Shown: positions 33,280 through 42,089 of the stretch, in pieces
Layout of the letters: each line of letters opens with the position of its first letter
How positions within the stretch are numbered: position 1 is the first letter of the stretch
Source: Ruminococcus sp.
GTDB lineage: Bacteria > Bacillota > Clostridia > Oscillospirales > Ruminococcaceae
Length of the DNA stretch: 64,000 nt
Direction: 5' to 3'
Assembly (NCBI GenBank): GCA_017460665.1
Contig: JAFUAO010000041.1
Span: forward strand, 124,001-188,000
Translations under genes and position numbers: made by a program
Notes under the pieces: model-generated
What the model saw: the letters and a program-made list of their open reading frames with translations, nothing else
Told to the model about the DNA's origin: nothing
Databases searched by the model: none

Positions 33280-33308
33280 TTGACATAAGACGATCTTTGT
33301 GATATAAT
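33280..33308 (+). promoter_or_regulatory. Consensus promoter of the TerB / ATPase / helicase unit
   Basis: TTGACA (33280-33285) and TATAAT (33303-33308) are 17 bases apart, a perfect consensus. It gives the three-gene unit its own constitutive-looking promoter, with a leader of about 30 bases. Confidence 0.88.
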
Positions 33309-33343
33309 ATAAGGTACAGCATTTTGCAGGGGAGGTGCAGGCT

Positions 33344-34834
33344 ATGTCCGATATAAAAGAGATCCTTGAGAGCGTTCTCCACGACGAGAAGCTGCTCAGC
33401 AGCAAGGCCTTTCGGGAAAGGGTCTACTCCGACCAGCTTATCCTTCGGCCGGCCTCTCAGATAAAGCGCCCGGAGACTCCTGCCAAGCTGCGTGAGATGA
33501 AGGCCCTTGCCTACACCCCCGAGGCCTACTGGAAGACCTCCGCTTGGCTCTTCGTCCAGCAGGGGCAGTTCATGGCCGACTATGAGGACAGCTTCCCCAC
33601 TCCGGAGGAGTTCGAGATGCCCTTCCCCACATACCGGGACATGACCTCCGACCAGCTAAGAGGCTATTTTGCTTGGCGGAGCGCCCTTCGCCGCGGGAGT
33701 TTCCAGCCTGCGCCTTTGCCGTTCCTGACCATGTACGCCTTCGAGCAGATCAACCTGATCGGCACCGACAGCCCGGAGGAGGCCTTCTGTCGGCTGGGGC
33801 AGCTCAGAGAGAGCTATCCCCAGAGGGAGGAGCTCTGCCGCAGGATCCTTGTGTGGCAGAGGGACTTGGCGGTCCGGTATGAGCTGCCAAGAGAGATCTT
33901 CGCTGAGCTGCCGGATCTGGAGATCGACCGGCTCCTCATGACGCTGATCCGCTGGGACAAGACGGACGACGGTGAGCTCTTCTCTGCGATCACTCAGCTC
34001 TCAGCCTACCGACCCGACAGCTCACGGCTCTTCGCCGAGCAGCCGGAGCTGTTCCGGGCCGGGGTCTGTGCAGCTTACAGGAGGCTTGCGGAGTTTTACC
34101 GTGACAAGCGGAAAAACAGCCTCTTCGAGAAGCTCTTCGGCAAGCTGGCGGACTCGGCCTATCATCTGTTTGCCGACGGGATCTACTACGAGCGCAAGCC
34201 GGACCTGAGCCTGTGCTGCGCCCTCAGCGATATACAGATCTACACCTGTGAATACGGCCGGTGGAGCGTCATGCGCTTCCACAACAGAGGCCGCAGCAAG
34301 GCCCTTGGTGAGGTGGTACGAACGGTCGACAGCCTCCTTCGTGAGATCTCCGGCTACCGCTTCAAGGTGGGCCTTGGGGAGGTCAGCAAGCAGACCTGCG
34401 CCCTGCTGAAAAAGGAGCTGGAGGGCCTTTGGGAGAGCCGGAAACGCTCTCAGGCGGTGAAGATCGAGTTCGATCTTTCCAAGCTCAACGCTATCCGAGC
34501 GGCTTCTGAGGCCACCTGCGAGAAGCTGATCGTGGACGAGGAGGAGCTCCCTGAGCTGACCGCAGCTGAGGAGGAGCCGGCTGCCGAGGAGACCTCCGCC
34601 GCAAATGTGCCCCTTTCCCCGGGGGAGCTGCCCTTCCTCCGGGCCCTGCTGACAGGAGGGGACTGGGCCGGCGCTGCACGGAGCGCAGGATCAATGGCGT
34701 CCCTCCTTGCGGACAGCATAAACGACCGGCTCTTCGACCGCTTCGGCGACACTGTCATCGAGTTTTGCGGTGAAGCTCCCCAGATCATAGAGGACTACGC
34801 AGAGGAGCTCAGAGAGCTCCTAGGCCTGAGATAG
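33344..34834 (+). CDS. TerB-N / TerB-C domain protein
   Basis: GGGGAGGTG lies before the ATG at 33344 (MSDIKEILES), giving 496 residues. Residues about 45-250 match my recollection of the TerB-N domain: YTPEAYWKTSAWLFVQQG, FPTYRDMTSDQLRGYFAWR, and FLTMYAFEQINLIG. The second half (about 250-495, with SLCCALSDIQIYT and an acidic Glu/Ala-rich stretch at 400-425) is consistent with TerB-C. TerB-N/C proteins are thought to scaffold membrane- or DNA-associated complexes related to tellurite-resistance (Ter) systems. No enzyme motif is visible. It is cotranscribed with a P-loop ATPase 13 bases downstream and an SF2 helicase. Confidence 0.8.
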   Translation: MSDIKEILESVLHDEKLLSSKAFRERVYSDQLILRPASQIKRPETPAKLREMKALAYTPEAYWKTSAWLFVQQGQFMADYEDSFPTPEEFEMPFPTYRDMTSDQLRGYFAWRSALRRGSFQPAPLPFLTMYAFEQINLIGTDSPEEAFCRLGQLRESYPQREELCRRILVWQRDLAVRYELPREIFAELPDLEIDRLLMTLIRWDKTDDGELFSAITQLSAYRPDSSRLFAEQPELFRAGVCAAYRRLAEFYRDKRKNSLFEKLFGKLADSAYHLFADGIYYERKPDLSLCCALSDIQIYTCEYGRWSVMRFHNRGRSKALGEVVRTVDSLLREISGYRFKVGLGEVSKQTCALLKKELEGLWESRKRSQAVKIEFDLSKLNAIRAASEATCEKLIVDEEELPELTAAEEEPAAEETSAANVPLSPGELPFLRALLTGGDWAGAARSAGSMASLLADSINDRLFDRFGDTVIEFCGEAPQIIEDYAEELRELLGLR

Positions 34835-34847
34835 AAAGGAACTGACC

Positions 34848-36158
34848 ATGCAGATACCAAAAAGAATCGCCTCGGCGGTCATCAATTCCCTTAAAGGCGG
34901 AGTCGTTCCCCGGACCGGCCTGCCCTACATCACCGTGGGCCGTGAGGCCGAGATCGACGCTCTGCTCCGTGATGTGGAGATCATCAGCGACGGCGGTGCC
35001 TCATTCCGCTTCATAGTGGGAAAATACGGCAGCGGCAAGAGCTTCCTGCTGCAAACTATCCGCAGCCACGTCATGGACAGAGGCTTCGTGGTGGTGGACG
35101 CAGACCTCTCGCCGGAGCGCCGCTTACAGGGCACCAAGGGGCAGGGCCTTGCAACCTACAAGGAGCTCATGAAGAATATGTCCACCAAGACCCGTCCCGA
35201 CGGCGGAGCCCTCTCCCTGATACTGGACCGCTGGATCAGCTCGGTCCAGTCCTCGGTCATGACCGAGAAGGGGATCTCTCCCGAGGATCCGGGCTTTTCC
35301 GCAGCCGTTGACAGGGCGATCGCCGGCGTTATAGGCTCCTTGAGCGAAATGGTCCACGGCTTCGACTTCACCCGGCTGCTGACTCTGTACTGCCATGCCT
35401 GCACTGGCTCCGACGATGAGACCAAGGCCAAGGTGGTCAAGTGGTTCCGAGGGGAGTACACGACTAAGACTGAGGCCAAGAACGACCTTGGCGTAAATAT
35501 CATCATAACTGACGACGACTGGTACGAGTACCTAAAGCTCTTTGCGCTGTTCCTGAAAATGGCAGGATACAGCGGCATGATGATCCTTATCGACGAGCTG
35601 GTGAACATCTACAAGATCCCCAACGCCATTACCCGGCAGTACAACTACGAGAAGATCCTCACCATGTACAACGACACCCTCCAGGGGAAGGCCAAGTATC
35701 TGGGGATCATCATGGGAGGGACTCCCCAGTGCATCGAGGACACACGCCGTGGAGTCTACAGCTATGAGGCGCTGAGGTCAAGGCTCTCCGAAAGCAGGTT
35801 CGGCGGCGAGGAGGTCCGGGACATGATGGCTCCCGTGATCAGGCTCACGGCCCTGACTTATGAGGAGATGCTGGTGCTGACGGAGAAGCTCTCCGACATA
35901 CACGCCGGGCTATTTGGCTATGCTCAGCGCATAACTCAGGAGGAGATGGTGGCCTTTTTGCAGAGCGAGTTCGGCCGGATCGGCGCCGACAGCCACATAA
36001 CTCCCCGTGAGGTGATCCGTGACTTCATCGGCCTTTTGGACATCGCCTTCCAGAACCCTTCGATACCCATTGCCAAGCTGATCGGCGAGCTGCCTGAGAC
36101 CTCCTCCGATGACGGAGAGGACGGCGAGGGCGCTCTGTTCGCCGAGTTCGACATCTGA
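34848..36158 (+). CDS. BrxC/BrxD-like P-loop ATPase (DUF2791 family)
   Basis: The protein has 436 residues. An N-terminal block IVGKYGSGKSFLL (Walker A) is followed by VVVDADLSPERRLQGTKGQG, characteristic of DUF2791 ATP-binding proteins. Walker B is MMILIDELVNIY. DUF2791 proteins are relatives of the BREX phage-defence ATPases BrxC and BrxD, and of AAA+/STAND-like conflict ATPases. AAAGGAAC precedes the ATG. The gene sits between the TerB-type gene and a helicase with gaps of 13 and 10 bases, so the three products are probably made together and act as one complex. No BREX methylase (PglX) or phosphatase (PglZ) lies in the window. Confidence 0.82.
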   Translation: MQIPKRIASAVINSLKGGVVPRTGLPYITVGREAEIDALLRDVEIISDGGASFRFIVGKYGSGKSFLLQTIRSHVMDRGFVVVDADLSPERRLQGTKGQGLATYKELMKNMSTKTRPDGGALSLILDRWISSVQSSVMTEKGISPEDPGFSAAVDRAIAGVIGSLSEMVHGFDFTRLLTLYCHACTGSDDETKAKVVKWFRGEYTTKTEAKNDLGVNIIITDDDWYEYLKLFALFLKMAGYSGMMILIDELVNIYKIPNAITRQYNYEKILTMYNDTLQGKAKYLGIIMGGTPQCIEDTRRGVYSYEALRSRLSESRFGGEEVRDMMAPVIRLTALTYEEMLVLTEKLSDIHAGLFGYAQRITQEEMVAFLQSEFGRIGADSHITPREVIRDFIGLLDIAFQNPSIPIAKLIGELPETSSDDGEDGEGALFAEFDI

Positions 36159-36168
36159 GGAGGGAGAT

Positions 36169-38409
36169 ATGGACGTTTACGACCGCTATGCTCCTTTTAT
36201 ACAGGACTTCATCTACCGCAACGGCTGGGAGTCCCTTCGGGGAGTACAGGCTGCTGCCGGCGAGGCGATATTCGGCACCGAGGACAACGTCCTCCTGTCG
36301 GCCTCAACTGCCTCCGGAAAGACCGAGGCGGCATTTTTTCCCATACTCACGCTGTTCTCAGAGGATATGCCAAGGTCAGTGGGAGCTGTGTACATCGGGC
36401 CGCTGAAGGCCCTGATCAACGATCAGTTCTCACGGCTCACAGAGCTTTGTCAGGAGGCGGAGATCCCCGTCTGGCACTGGCACGGTGATGTGGCCCAGTC
36501 CCACAAGACGAAAATGCTGAAGTCCCCCTCAGGGATACTCCAGATCACGCCGGAGTCCCTTGAGGCGCTGATGCTGCGAAAGCACGCCCTGATCCCGAAG
36601 TTCTTCCACGACCTGCGCTTCGTGGTGATCGACGAGATCCACTCACTCATGCGTGGGGACCGTGGAGGCCAGACCATGTGCCTGATCGAAAGGCTGTCAA
36701 GGCTCTCCGGCTCGGACCCCAGAAGGATCGGGCTCTCGGCTACGATCGGGGATATGGAGGCCGCCGGAAGGTTCCTCTCCTCCGGATCCTCCAGAGGCAC
36801 GGTGATCCCCAAGATCCAGTCCAAGGGCGACCGCTGGAGGCTGTCCATGGAGCACTTCTACATCAGCCAGCAGAACGTTCCGGAGGAGAATGAGGCTCCC
36901 GAGGGCGCCATGCCTGTCCTTGACGAGAAAACGGACAGCGCTCCCAAAAACGCAGACCCGGGGATGGGCTATATCTTCGAGCATACACGGGGCCGGAAAT
37001 GCCTTGTTTTCGTCAATTCTAGGGAGGAATGTGAGGCTGTCACTACCACCCTGCGCTCCTACTGCGAGGCCAACGGCGAGCCCGACCGCTTCCTGATCCA
37101 CCACGGGAACCTTTCCGCCGCCTACCGTGAGACTGCCGAGGACGCCATGAAGGACGACGACATCTTCATGACTACCTGCACCACGGCTACCCTTGAGCTG
37201 GGGATCGACATAGGCCGTCTGGAGCGTGCTTTCCAGATCGATGCGCCCTTCACCGTGTCTTCATTTTTGCAGAGAATGGGACGCACCGGCCGCCGTGGGC
37301 TGCCTCCGGAGATGTGGTTCGTCGTTCGGGAGGAGCTGCCGGAGCCACGGTCCATGCTGCCTGAGACCGTTCCGTGGAAGCTCCTGCAAGGCATAGCGCT
37401 GATCCAGGTCTATCTGGAGGAGCGCTGGGTGGAGCCGCCGAAGCTGGACAGGCTGCCATTCAGCCTGCTCTACCACCAGACCATGAGCACGCTGGCCTCA
37501 TCCGGGGAGATGTCTCCAAGGGAGCTGGCGGCTAAGGTGCTGACACTGAACTGCTTCAAGCGAATCACTCAGGAGGACTATAAGCTCCTGCTCCGGCACC
37601 TGCTGGAGACCGAGCATATCCAGCGCACTGAGGAGGGCGGACTGATCGTAGGCCTTGCCGGAGAGCGGATCGTGAACAGCTTCAAGTTCTACGCCGTTTT
37701 TCAGGAGAACGAGGAGTACACCGTCCGCTGGAACTCACAGGAGCTGGGCACGATCGTCATGCCGCCGCCGGTGGGTGAGAAGGTGGCTATCGCCGGCCAT
37801 GTTTGGGTGGTGGAGGAGCTGGACCACAAGCGCCGTCAGGTCTACGTCGAGAAGATCAAGGGCAGGGTCCCGGCTTATTTCGGGGACTGTCCCGGCGACA
37901 TCAACACCAAGATCTTAGAGCGCATGAGACAGGTGCTCCGGGAGGAGAAGAGCTACCCGTACCTGATGAAGAACGCCGTTCTGCGGCTGGATCAGGCAAG
38001 GGCGGTCTCCCGAAACTCCGGCCTTACGGAGTCTCCCCTCATCTGCCTTGGAGGGACCATGTGGTGTCTGCTGCCGTGGCTGGGATCCTACGCATTTCTG
38101 GCAATGGAGCGCTTTCTGAAGATCCGCTGCGGTGAGCGCCTCGGCCTAAAGGGGCTGAGCTCCTCACGGCCTTATTTCATACAGTTCACCATGAAGGTCA
38201 GCCCTGAGGAGTTCCTGAGGGTCCTCATCGAGGAGGCCGAAAGGGAGCTTGATCCTCTGGAGCTGGTCTACCCCGGCGAGGTGCCGCTCTTTGAGAAATA
38301 CGATGAGTTCGTCCCGGAGGAGCTGGTCCGGAAGGGCTTTGCCTATGGGATACTGGGCATCGACGAGATGAGGAGCAGGATCCTTGGCTGGAAGGAGCTC
38401 ATACAGTAA
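36169..38409 (+). CDS. Lhr-like superfamily II DEAD/DEAH helicase
   Basis: The start at 36169 (MDVYDRYAPF) follows GAGGAGGG at the end of the ATPase gene and gives 746 residues. Motif I is STASGKTEAAFFP, motif II VVIDEIHSLMRGDRGG, motif III GLSATIGD and motif VI QRMGRTGRRG. These, with the DEIH box followed by an RGG element, resemble Lhr-type helicases. The C-terminal region with RRQVYVEKIKGRVPAYFGD and YPYL resembles the winged-helix and beta-barrel part of that family. No nuclease motif is visible. A 3'-5' DNA or DNA/RNA-hybrid translocase acting with the TerB protein and the ATPase is the most likely role; the target is unknown. Confidence 0.85.
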   Translation: MDVYDRYAPFIQDFIYRNGWESLRGVQAAAGEAIFGTEDNVLLSASTASGKTEAAFFPILTLFSEDMPRSVGAVYIGPLKALINDQFSRLTELCQEAEIPVWHWHGDVAQSHKTKMLKSPSGILQITPESLEALMLRKHALIPKFFHDLRFVVIDEIHSLMRGDRGGQTMCLIERLSRLSGSDPRRIGLSATIGDMEAAGRFLSSGSSRGTVIPKIQSKGDRWRLSMEHFYISQQNVPEENEAPEGAMPVLDEKTDSAPKNADPGMGYIFEHTRGRKCLVFVNSREECEAVTTTLRSYCEANGEPDRFLIHHGNLSAAYRETAEDAMKDDDIFMTTCTTATLELGIDIGRLERAFQIDAPFTVSSFLQRMGRTGRRGLPPEMWFVVREELPEPRSMLPETVPWKLLQGIALIQVYLEERWVEPPKLDRLPFSLLYHQTMSTLASSGEMSPRELAAKVLTLNCFKRITQEDYKLLLRHLLETEHIQRTEEGGLIVGLAGERIVNSFKFYAVFQENEEYTVRWNSQELGTIVMPPPVGEKVAIAGHVWVVEELDHKRRQVYVEKIKGRVPAYFGDCPGDINTKILERMRQVLREEKSYPYLMKNAVLRLDQARAVSRNSGLTESPLICLGGTMWCLLPWLGSYAFLAMERFLKIRCGERLGLKGLSSSRPYFIQFTMKVSPEEFLRVLIEEAERELDPLELVYPGEVPLFEKYDEFVPEELVRKGFAYGILGIDEMRSRILGWKELIQ

Positions 38410-38440
38410 AAAAGAGCCGCCCATGCCGGACGGCTCTTCT
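38407..38440. terminator. Bidirectional terminator between helicase and ackA
   Basis: AGAGCCG pairs with CGGCTCT, with an inner CC/GG extension across one mismatch. On the minus strand it is followed by six T, making a strong ackA terminator. On the plus strand the U-tract (TTCTTG) is weaker. Confidence 0.8.
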
Positions 38441-38472
38441 TGCAATACGAGCAGAATTATGGTATAATGGGA

Positions 38473-39672
38473 TCACTTGCTGATGAGCTCAAGAGTATCT
38501 CTTGCGATAAGGAGCTCCTCATTTGTGGGAACGATCCATACCTCGATCTTTGAGTCGGGAGTGGACAGCTTTGTGAGCTTGCCTCTGATGGATCTGTTCA
38601 GCTCATTGTCGATCTTGATGCCGAAGTAGTCCATATCCTCGCATACAGCCTCTCTTACCTCCCATGAGTTCTCGCCGATACCGCCTGTGAAGAGGATAGC
38701 GTCAAGACCGTTCATGGCAGCGGCATAGGAGCCGATGTACTTCTTGATCTCGTATGCGAGCATCTCTGATACCAGCTCAGCTCTCTTGTTGCCGTGGTTA
38801 GCAGCCTCCTGTATGTCACGGTTGTCAGAGCCCACGCCGGAAACTCCCAGGAAGCCGGACTTCTTGTTCATGTACTCGCTCATCTGAGAGGGAGTGAAGC
38901 CGTGCTTGTCTGCAACGAATGTAACAGCAGAGGGATCAACTGCACCTGTTCTTGTTCCCATGACAACGCCGTCCAGAGGAGTGAATCCCATGGAGGTATC
39001 GACGCTCTTTCCGCCGTCGACAGCGGTGATAGAGGAGCCGTTGCCAAGGTGACATGAAACGATCTTAAGGTCCTTTACGTCCTTGCCCATAGCGTCAGCC
39101 AGAGCCTTTGAAACGAACCTGTGAGATGTGCCGTGGAAGCCGTACTTCCTTACATGGAGGGTCTCATAGTCATCGTAGGGGAGACCGAACATGAAGGCCT
39201 TGGGGGGCATGGTCTGGTGGAAGGCAGTATCGAAAACTACTACCTGAGGAACGTTTGCAGGGATAACGCTCTTGCAGGCCCTCAGAGCCAGAGCGTGTGC
39301 GTGGTTATGTACGGGAGCCAGCTCACGGAGCTCGTCGATCTTGTCGATGATCTCGTCAGTTACGAGAACGGACTTGTCGAAAACATCGGCGCCCTGTACG
39401 ATACGGTGGCCAACGGCTGAGATCTCGTCCATGCTGTCGATGACCTTAGCGTCGCCTGTAGTAAGAGCCTCCACCAGCTTCATGAAGGCCTCGGTATGTG
39501 TGGGGAACGAGCAGTCCTCATCGAGGGTCCTGCCGTCAGCGGCCTTGTGGTTGATATGGCCGTCGATGCCGATACGGTCGCAGTTGCCCTTAGCGATAAC
39601 GCTCTCATCCTCCATATCTATGAGCTGATACTTCAGTGAGGAGCTTCCTGCGTTTACAACTAAAATGATCAT
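38473..39672 (-). CDS. ackA: Acetate kinase
   Basis: The enzyme interconverts acetyl phosphate plus ADP with acetate plus ATP, the main ATP-yielding end step of acetate fermentation. The start at 39672 (MIILVVNAGSSSLKYQL) is the family N-terminus and has AAAGGAA upstream; it gives 399 residues, the normal length. NAGSSSLK binds phosphate, GFHGTSHRFV and CHLGNGSSI are acetokinase signatures, and FTGGIGENS belongs to the nucleotide site. Codon use is strongly biased, as expected for a highly expressed gene. Phosphotransacetylase is not in the window. Confidence 0.97.
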   Translation of the reverse strand: MIILVVNAGSSSLKYQLIDMEDESVIAKGNCDRIGIDGHINHKAADGRTLDEDCSFPTHTEAFMKLVEALTTGDAKVIDSMDEISAVGHRIVQGADVFDKSVLVTDEIIDKIDELRELAPVHNHAHALALRACKSVIPANVPQVVVFDTAFHQTMPPKAFMFGLPYDDYETLHVRKYGFHGTSHRFVSKALADAMGKDVKDLKIVSCHLGNGSSITAVDGGKSVDTSMGFTPLDGVVMGTRTGAVDPSAVTFVADKHGFTPSQMSEYMNKKSGFLGVSGVGSDNRDIQEAANHGNKRAELVSEMLAYEIKKYIGSYAAAMNGLDAILFTGGIGENSWEVREAVCEDMDYFGIKIDNELNRSIRGKLTKLSTPDSKIEVWIVPTNEELLIARDTLELISK

Positions 39673-39710
39673 AAAAGAAATTCCTTTCCAAATAATATTT
39701 TGCATATACT

Positions 39711-41084: not shown

Positions 41085-42089
41085 ATGATAGGAAAGATCG
41101 TAAAAACGGCTGCTGCGGCCGTGCTGTGTACCGCTATGGTATCATGCGGGAAGACAGTACAGCTCGCAGGCAGCAACGAACAAAAGGATCCGGACAACAG
41201 CAGTACAGACATAAGATCTCTCACAGATGAGATACCTATAGACGAGGAGACAGAGCCTGTAACGGAGGAGCCTACGGATCCCCCGAGACCTGTCGCCCCG
41301 GATAAGTTAAGCGTGGATACGGATATGCCCTCCGGATATGAGCTTCCTGAGAGCTTCGTGCTGGACTTCGAGACGGTCATGCAGGAGCCTGAGCTGCCTA
41401 CGGGCTGCGAGGTGACGGCCCTGACCGAGACCCTCAATTACTACGGCTTCGGCATCGACAAGGTGGACCTGTGCGATGAATACCTCCCCAAGGACTATGA
41501 GGGGTATTACTACATGGACGAGGCCTATGTGGGCGACCCCCATTCCTATAACGGCTTCGGCTGCTATGCCCCGGTCATCGTCAATACCGCCAACGATTAT
41601 TTCGAGTCGATACAGTCCGACTGGTACGCCAAGGACCTTACCGGGTGCAGCCTTGACGACCTCTGCTATCAGATCGAGCAGGGAAGGCCAGTGATCGTTT
41701 GGGTCACTATGGATATGCGTGAGACCTATCCCAATTTTAAGTTCACGACCGGCAACGGCAAGGACTTCATGTTCAACGACTATCAGCACTGTGTGGCCAT
41801 TTACGGCTTCGATTTCGGTGCAAGGACCATACATACCGCCGATCCTCTGGTGGGCAACATCGAGTACGACATGGACCAGTTCGACAAGATTTTCCAGATC
41901 CAGGGCAACCAGGCCGTCATCCTTCTTGGGAACGAGGAGTCTGCCGGGACCGTCTATGCTACAGATGAGGAGATCCAGGCTTGGTTCGAGGAGAAGCACC
42001 CCTCAGAGAACGAGGAGGAAAGCTCCTCCGATGAGGACGAAGGCTATGACGTGGAGGACTACTACGATGAGGTCTTCTATGAGGGCTGA
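41085..42089 (+). CDS. Lipoprotein with C39-like peptidase domain
   Basis: The protein has 334 residues. A lipoprotein signal (MIGKIVKTAAAAVLCTAMVSC, split here as signal plus lipobox MVSC, with Cys21 the anchor) leads to a Ser/Asp/Pro-rich spacer. A peptidase C39-like domain follows (about 95-290). Catalytic residues are apparent: Cys in LPTGCEVTAL, His in DYQHCVAIYGFD and Asp in HTADPLVG. It ends in a strongly acidic tail. It should act outside the cell on peptides or wall components; the substrate is unknown. It lies three bases after tmcAL and overlaps the next gene by 11 bases, odd company for RNA-modifying enzymes. Confidence 0.85.
   Translation: MIGKIVKTAAAAVLCTAMVSCGKTVQLAGSNEQKDPDNSSTDIRSLTDEIPIDEETEPVTEEPTDPPRPVAPDKLSVDTDMPSGYELPESFVLDFETVMQEPELPTGCEVTALTETLNYYGFGIDKVDLCDEYLPKDYEGYYYMDEAYVGDPHSYNGFGCYAPVIVNTANDYFESIQSDWYAKDLTGCSLDDLCYQIEQGRPVIVWVTMDMRETYPNFKFTTGNGKDFMFNDYQHCVAIYGFDFGARTIHTADPLVGNIEYDMDQFDKIFQIQGNQAVILLGNEESAGTVYATDEEIQAWFEEKHPSENEEESSSDEDEGYDVEDYYDEVFYEG

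Follow-up and report, generated by a model that had tools for sequence, protein, structure and literature searches.

The DNA analysed here (the window) is a 64,000-nucleotide stretch of a contig from a probable Ruminococcus (JAFUAO010000041.1, positions 124,001 to 188,000), and its subject is a compact run of three forward-strand genes, sngA (33344..34834; 496 amino acids), sngB (34848..36158; 436 amino acids) and sngC (36169..38409; 746 amino acids). The open reading frames can also be taken from 33335 for sngA and from 36109 for sngC; with the ATG codons at 33344 and 36169, both of which follow a GGAGG-type sequence seen by eye, the intergenic gaps are 13 bases (sngA-sngB) and 10 bases (sngB-sngC), confirming the coordinates in a preliminary description of this DNA. 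The top PADLOC models for the three products were those of the Shango anti-phage system, each matched over nearly the full length: SngA at 227.9 bits (1.1e-67 across residues 27-493), SngB at 630.3 bits (4.7e-190) and SngC at 916.1 bits (5e-276). All three Shango parts are present, in the order A-B-C. Pfam hidden Markov models placed SngA with TerB_N (67.8 bits, cut-off 25) and TerB_C (84.6, cut-off 26.3), SngB with BrxC_BrxD (PF10923; 564.8, cut-off 22.2) and SngC with DEAD (94.8, cut-off 26) and Helicase_C (61.4, cut-off 23.5), the families that had been proposed; the Lhr winged helix reached 19.7 bits in SngC, under its cut-off of 27. Shango is said to have been first reported, from Escherichia coli, by Millman et al. 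in 2022. Phage protection by the Shango of PA14 is described in PMC10250203. The defence-type module suggested in the preliminary description was thus borne out, and the suggestion of a minimal system without a name had to be dropped in favour of one previously described and tested. We conclude from these matches that sngABC is very probably (at roughly 0.9) a complete Shango anti-phage system. It is a genuine and intact, though unremarkable, example of a defence family already known, and its setting is new.

The ATPase had earlier been linked to bacteriophage exclusion (BREX), a link that holds and extends to the helicase, since the second-best PADLOC names were BrxD for SngB (159.4 bits) and BrxHI for SngC (402 bits). 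Together with the PF10923 score, these names would fit a reduced or derived BREX module of a type 2-like kind built on the BrxD-BrxHI pair, and as far as PMC12839542 describes type 2 BREX, BrxD and BrxHI are likewise a tight pair of adjacent genes, an ATPase and a helicase homologous to SngB and SngC. However, on the window proteins the BrxD and BrxHI models scored clearly below the Sng models (630 and 916 bits), and the NCBIfam BrxD model gave SngB 161.3 bits against a cut-off of 350. A single PF10923 gene, sngB itself, was found in the source genome (92.9% complete). No BrxC, PglX, PglZ or PglW, and no methylase or phosphatase, was found among the 10 neighbour genes scanned, PglX, PglZ and PglW having been sought there and not genome-wide. 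With the BrxD cut-off missed, one PF10923 gene in the genome and no BREX core among the neighbours, we rejected the BREX explanation as highly improbable.

To define how firmly the three genes belong together, their distribution was examined in 125 genomes of the genus, 68 of them of high quality (cut-offs: SngB E 0.001, SngA E 1e-10, SngC E 1e-60). SngB was found in 50 of the 125 (33 of the 68 high-quality ones), so that the system is not universal in the genus, as anticipated. Comparison of the carrier sets placed SngA and SngC in the same 50 genomes, and none of the three was found in the remaining 75 at these cut-offs. More widely, matches were found in 37 of 99 relatives at genus and order level. 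A set of 113 related loci (L032-L144) comprised 105 distinct by sngB, 80 of them with enough flanking DNA; all three genes stood together in 71 of these 80 (78/87 before duplicate removal), in line with the expectation of a conserved triad. Among the 50 genus carriers, the three genes shared one contig in 45. The sngC gene lay on a separate contig in G005 (L034), G032 (L036) and G118, and sngA did so in G028 (L056), all three genes being present in each of these four genomes; G028 and G032 are at 99-100% completeness. In the last of the five exceptions, G006, contig ends interrupt the locus. The nine loci outside the 71 are L034, L036 and L056, just mentioned; L062, whose SngA was found by Pfam and missed by BLAST; L063, L064 and L118, whose genomes contain an sngC relative at another place; and L098 and L136. 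G134 has sngC in reversed orientation next to sngB. A stop codon in sngC of G031 and a split sngA in G046 indicate that some sng copies are decaying or misassembled.

The evidence that the three Shango parts belong together is unusually clean. New here, besides the features of SngA and SngC given below, is the all-or-none retention of SngA, SngB and SngC across a genus, also in genomes whose sng genes have become separated, and this pattern, including the four scattered genomes, argues that the three proteins act together. Two genomes, those of L098 and L136, have SngA and SngB and no SngC at 1e-40, which argues against a strict requirement for the full set. The pattern could also reflect the shared history of one operon rather than a need for every part, an explanation that is compatible with the identification as Shango. 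Since 45 of the 50 carriers have the three genes on one contig, gain and loss would affect them jointly, and the sng and marker trees partly agree. Nevertheless, the four carriers with one gene on another contig still have all three, and the 75 other genomes yielded no remnant of a single sng gene at the cut-offs used; we regard shared history by itself as a rather unlikely account.

Some loci carry additional genes. Extra open reading frames stand between the sng genes in L104, L106, L133, L143, L041 and L055, the one in L041 encoding a small kinase-like protein (by eye). A very large gene follows sngC in L058 (L058:4280-9874, 1864 amino acids) and in L062 (L062:12018-17000, 1661 amino acids, cut by the fetched stretch), the L062 part matching REase_MTES_1575. 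This large gene is a possible fourth component.

SngB is a P-loop ATPase of the BrxC/BrxD family, with a Walker A motif at residues 58-65 and D249-E250, its Walker A and B residues being intact; residues G58, G61, G63, K64, S65, D249 and E250 were identical in 11/11 aligned proteins. SngC is an Lhr-type superfamily 2 (SF2) helicase, and its GKT, DExH, SAT and QRxGRTGRR residues were identical in all 46 aligned proteins. SngA has TerB_N and TerB_C and no match to the central TerB domain (PF05099), which was likewise not matched in any of the 61 aligned SngA proteins, that of the window included. For Shango, PMC10250203 names a 'TerB-like protein' in its definition, and one review, in its account of the system, gives a central TerB domain (PMC10952713). 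The Shango locus of a Sulfitobacter plasmid, named as such in a table of PMC10221251, has the same gene order and is collinear with the window. Its SngB and SngC are 40% and 37% identical to ours, and the two SngA proteins gave no significant BLASTP match; the Sulfitobacter SngA is 847 amino acids long against 496 here and has a central TerB (34.8 bits) that the window SngA lacks. The TerB-less proteins suggest that this region of SngA is not needed. On the same plasmid, genes for a PD-(D/E)XK nuclease and a UvrD-type helicase directly follow Shango (L185:6015-8757).

A Foldseek search with the whole SngA gave no match at E 0.001; in the structural model, the C-terminus (about residues 420-496) may form a winged helix. 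Compared with the genus genome G012, amino-acid identity was 80.5% for SngA, 93.6% for SngB and 94.2% for SngC, and the ratio of nonsynonymous to synonymous substitution rates (dN/dS) was 0.148, 0.051 and 0.051, respectively. Positive selection on SngA was rejected, its dN/dS being 0.148 and two neighbour genes also reaching 0.14. SngA is the freest-evolving part, as an adaptor or sensor could be, with the same two neighbours evolving equally fast.

The mechanism of Shango is given as unknown in a 2026 review, in the passage that treats it (PMC12926258), and we found no literature from 2024 on combining Shango, mechanism and cryo-electron microscopy. Most likely, the three Shango proteins act on DNA as a single machine. 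In the scheme we propose, SngA would use its TerB_N/TerB_C body and C-terminal winged helix to recognise or mark a DNA (or DNA-protein) structure specific to infection. SngB, an AAA+ ATPase of the Orc/Cdc6-like kind, would oligomerise and load SngC onto phage DNA at the direction of SngA, a loading step that we put forward tentatively. SngC would then unwind or translocate along the invading DNA as an Lhr-type helicase, blocking its replication or expression. The present data show family identity, intact ATPase and helicase motifs and all-or-none retention in one genus, and others have shown phage protection for homologues; we infer the target, the loading step, how the work is divided among the proteins and that no dedicated nuclease takes part. 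That Shango is an obligate machine of an Orc/Cdc6-like loader, an Lhr-type motor and a target adaptor with a dispensable TerB domain, with no nuclease of its own and with all parts kept by selection despite scattering, is possible, short of probable.

The operon is preceded by a sigma-70 type promoter on the forward strand (33280..33308) that matches TTGACA-17-TATAAT at 12 of 12 positions, as the preliminary description had it; it was the top of 8 sites between 32000 and 40000, a region whose shuffled sequence gave a mean of 2.9 sites. A terminator had been placed at the other end. A hairpin does separate sngC from ackA (38473..39705), the acetate kinase gene that runs towards it; the hairpin lies at 38410..38440 inside 38404-38446 (z -4.6 on the plus and -5.3 on the minus strand), and is absent from the terminator output of the consensus scan; its run of six U lies on the minus strand and is weak on the plus strand, so the hairpin fits ackA better than sngC. 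By Pfam, the left neighbours are CTP synthase, glutamine synthetase III, an EAL protein, a GH31 glycosidase and an AraC regulator, and the right neighbours are AckA, a HIGH nucleotidyltransferase (which we take to be tmcAL), a C39-like peptidase, MnmA and a small methyltransferase. The position between a sugar-utilisation pair (AraC-type regulator and GH31 glycosidase) and ackA is as described. Of ten genes compared with G012, the C39-like peptidase gene beside tmcAL (41085-42089) shows the lowest conservation (73% identity, dN/dS 0.14).

That position had also been taken for an insertion point. Relatives of araC (E up to 1e-60) were found in 18 of the 125 genus genomes, with ackA located in 17 of these. 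The window and G012 have sng between the two genes; G028 and G030 have both genes on a single contig, separated by about 20 kb and about 130 kb, respectively; and in the other 13 they are on different contigs. No clean empty araC-ackA site was found among the 17, and insertion could not be demonstrated in this way. Of the 50 carriers (ackA located in 49), 15 have an sng gene no more than 2 kb from ackA, in three relative orientations; in 11 of the 27 genus loci fetched, sng lies near a LysR-type regulator gene (named by eye) instead. Ten ackA-side loci were read: seven (window, G012, G053, G008, G032, G033 and G018) share the order sng-ackA-tmcAL, G005 and G009 depart from it, and G038 is ambiguous. 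Repeated insertion explains these arrangements no better than an old position followed by local inversions. The ackA and tmcAL genes form the edge of a conserved block whose other side varies between clades, and ackA is inverted in some species. The sng data reject the marker topology (19 genomes, p-AU 0.0002 in the approximately unbiased test), which speaks against pure vertical descent and makes some transfer likely, unless the six-gene marker tree is in error. That marker tree comprised six linked genes and 18 of the other 49 carriers only.

The flanks of sng were surveyed for defence genes (genes within 5 kb encoding at least 100 amino acids, conserved ackA-block genes excluded; 124 clusters in 33 loci). 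From 87 representatives in 27 genus loci, 85 proteins were scanned, one small and one 1864-amino-acid protein being dropped, and nine PADLOC families matched one member each at 1e-10; the DndA/SspA-type matches may be housekeeping desulfurases. In a partly overlapping set of ten further proteins, two matched the mad3 and mad8 ATPase-Toprim models, one of them resembling an ATP-binding cassette transporter by eye. No defence island was found around sng in the genus loci sampled, and the expectation of defence genes as neighbours was not upheld there. In contrast to known Shango, the flanks in these loci are housekeeping-type genes.

Such flanks would suit a genome-maintenance module, in which an Lhr-type helicase, an ATPase and a TerB partner repair DNA and phage resistance is a by-product. 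Lhr is a repair helicase, acting to our knowledge without SngA or SngB partners. The nearest solved structure to the predicted SngC fold is Lhr of Mycobacterium smegmatis (PDB 5v9x; 864 alignment columns, 18% identity), and the top NCBIfam match of SngC is a ligase-associated DNA-damage-response helicase, far under its cut-off (198 bits against 850). Purifying selection on all three sng genes (dN/dS 0.05-0.15) also agrees with maintenance. However, 75 of the 125 genus genomes, 35 of the 68 high-quality ones among them, gave no match to the genes; SngB relatives occur on 692 of 72,556 plasmid records; and among the best 80 of 579 confirmed named relatives, which include Ruminococcus flavefaciens strains and many Ruminococcus metagenome-assembled genomes, isolates of Selenomonas infelix and Lactobacillus hamsteri have SngB proteins of 71% and 69% identity. 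Homologues with anti-phage activity are, moreover, published (PMC10250203). We consider maintenance improbable and retain the identification as Shango. Carriage of Shango by phages was rejected as well (0 of 50,697 phage records; no relative confirmed in 127 candidate viral-contig stretches).

These results place Shango outside defence islands in a probable Ruminococcus, a genus of fibre-degrading gut and rumen bacteria. With 50 carriers, 75 genomes without Shango, several positions on the chromosome and dispersal of the genes in four genomes, the genus constitutes a natural experiment.
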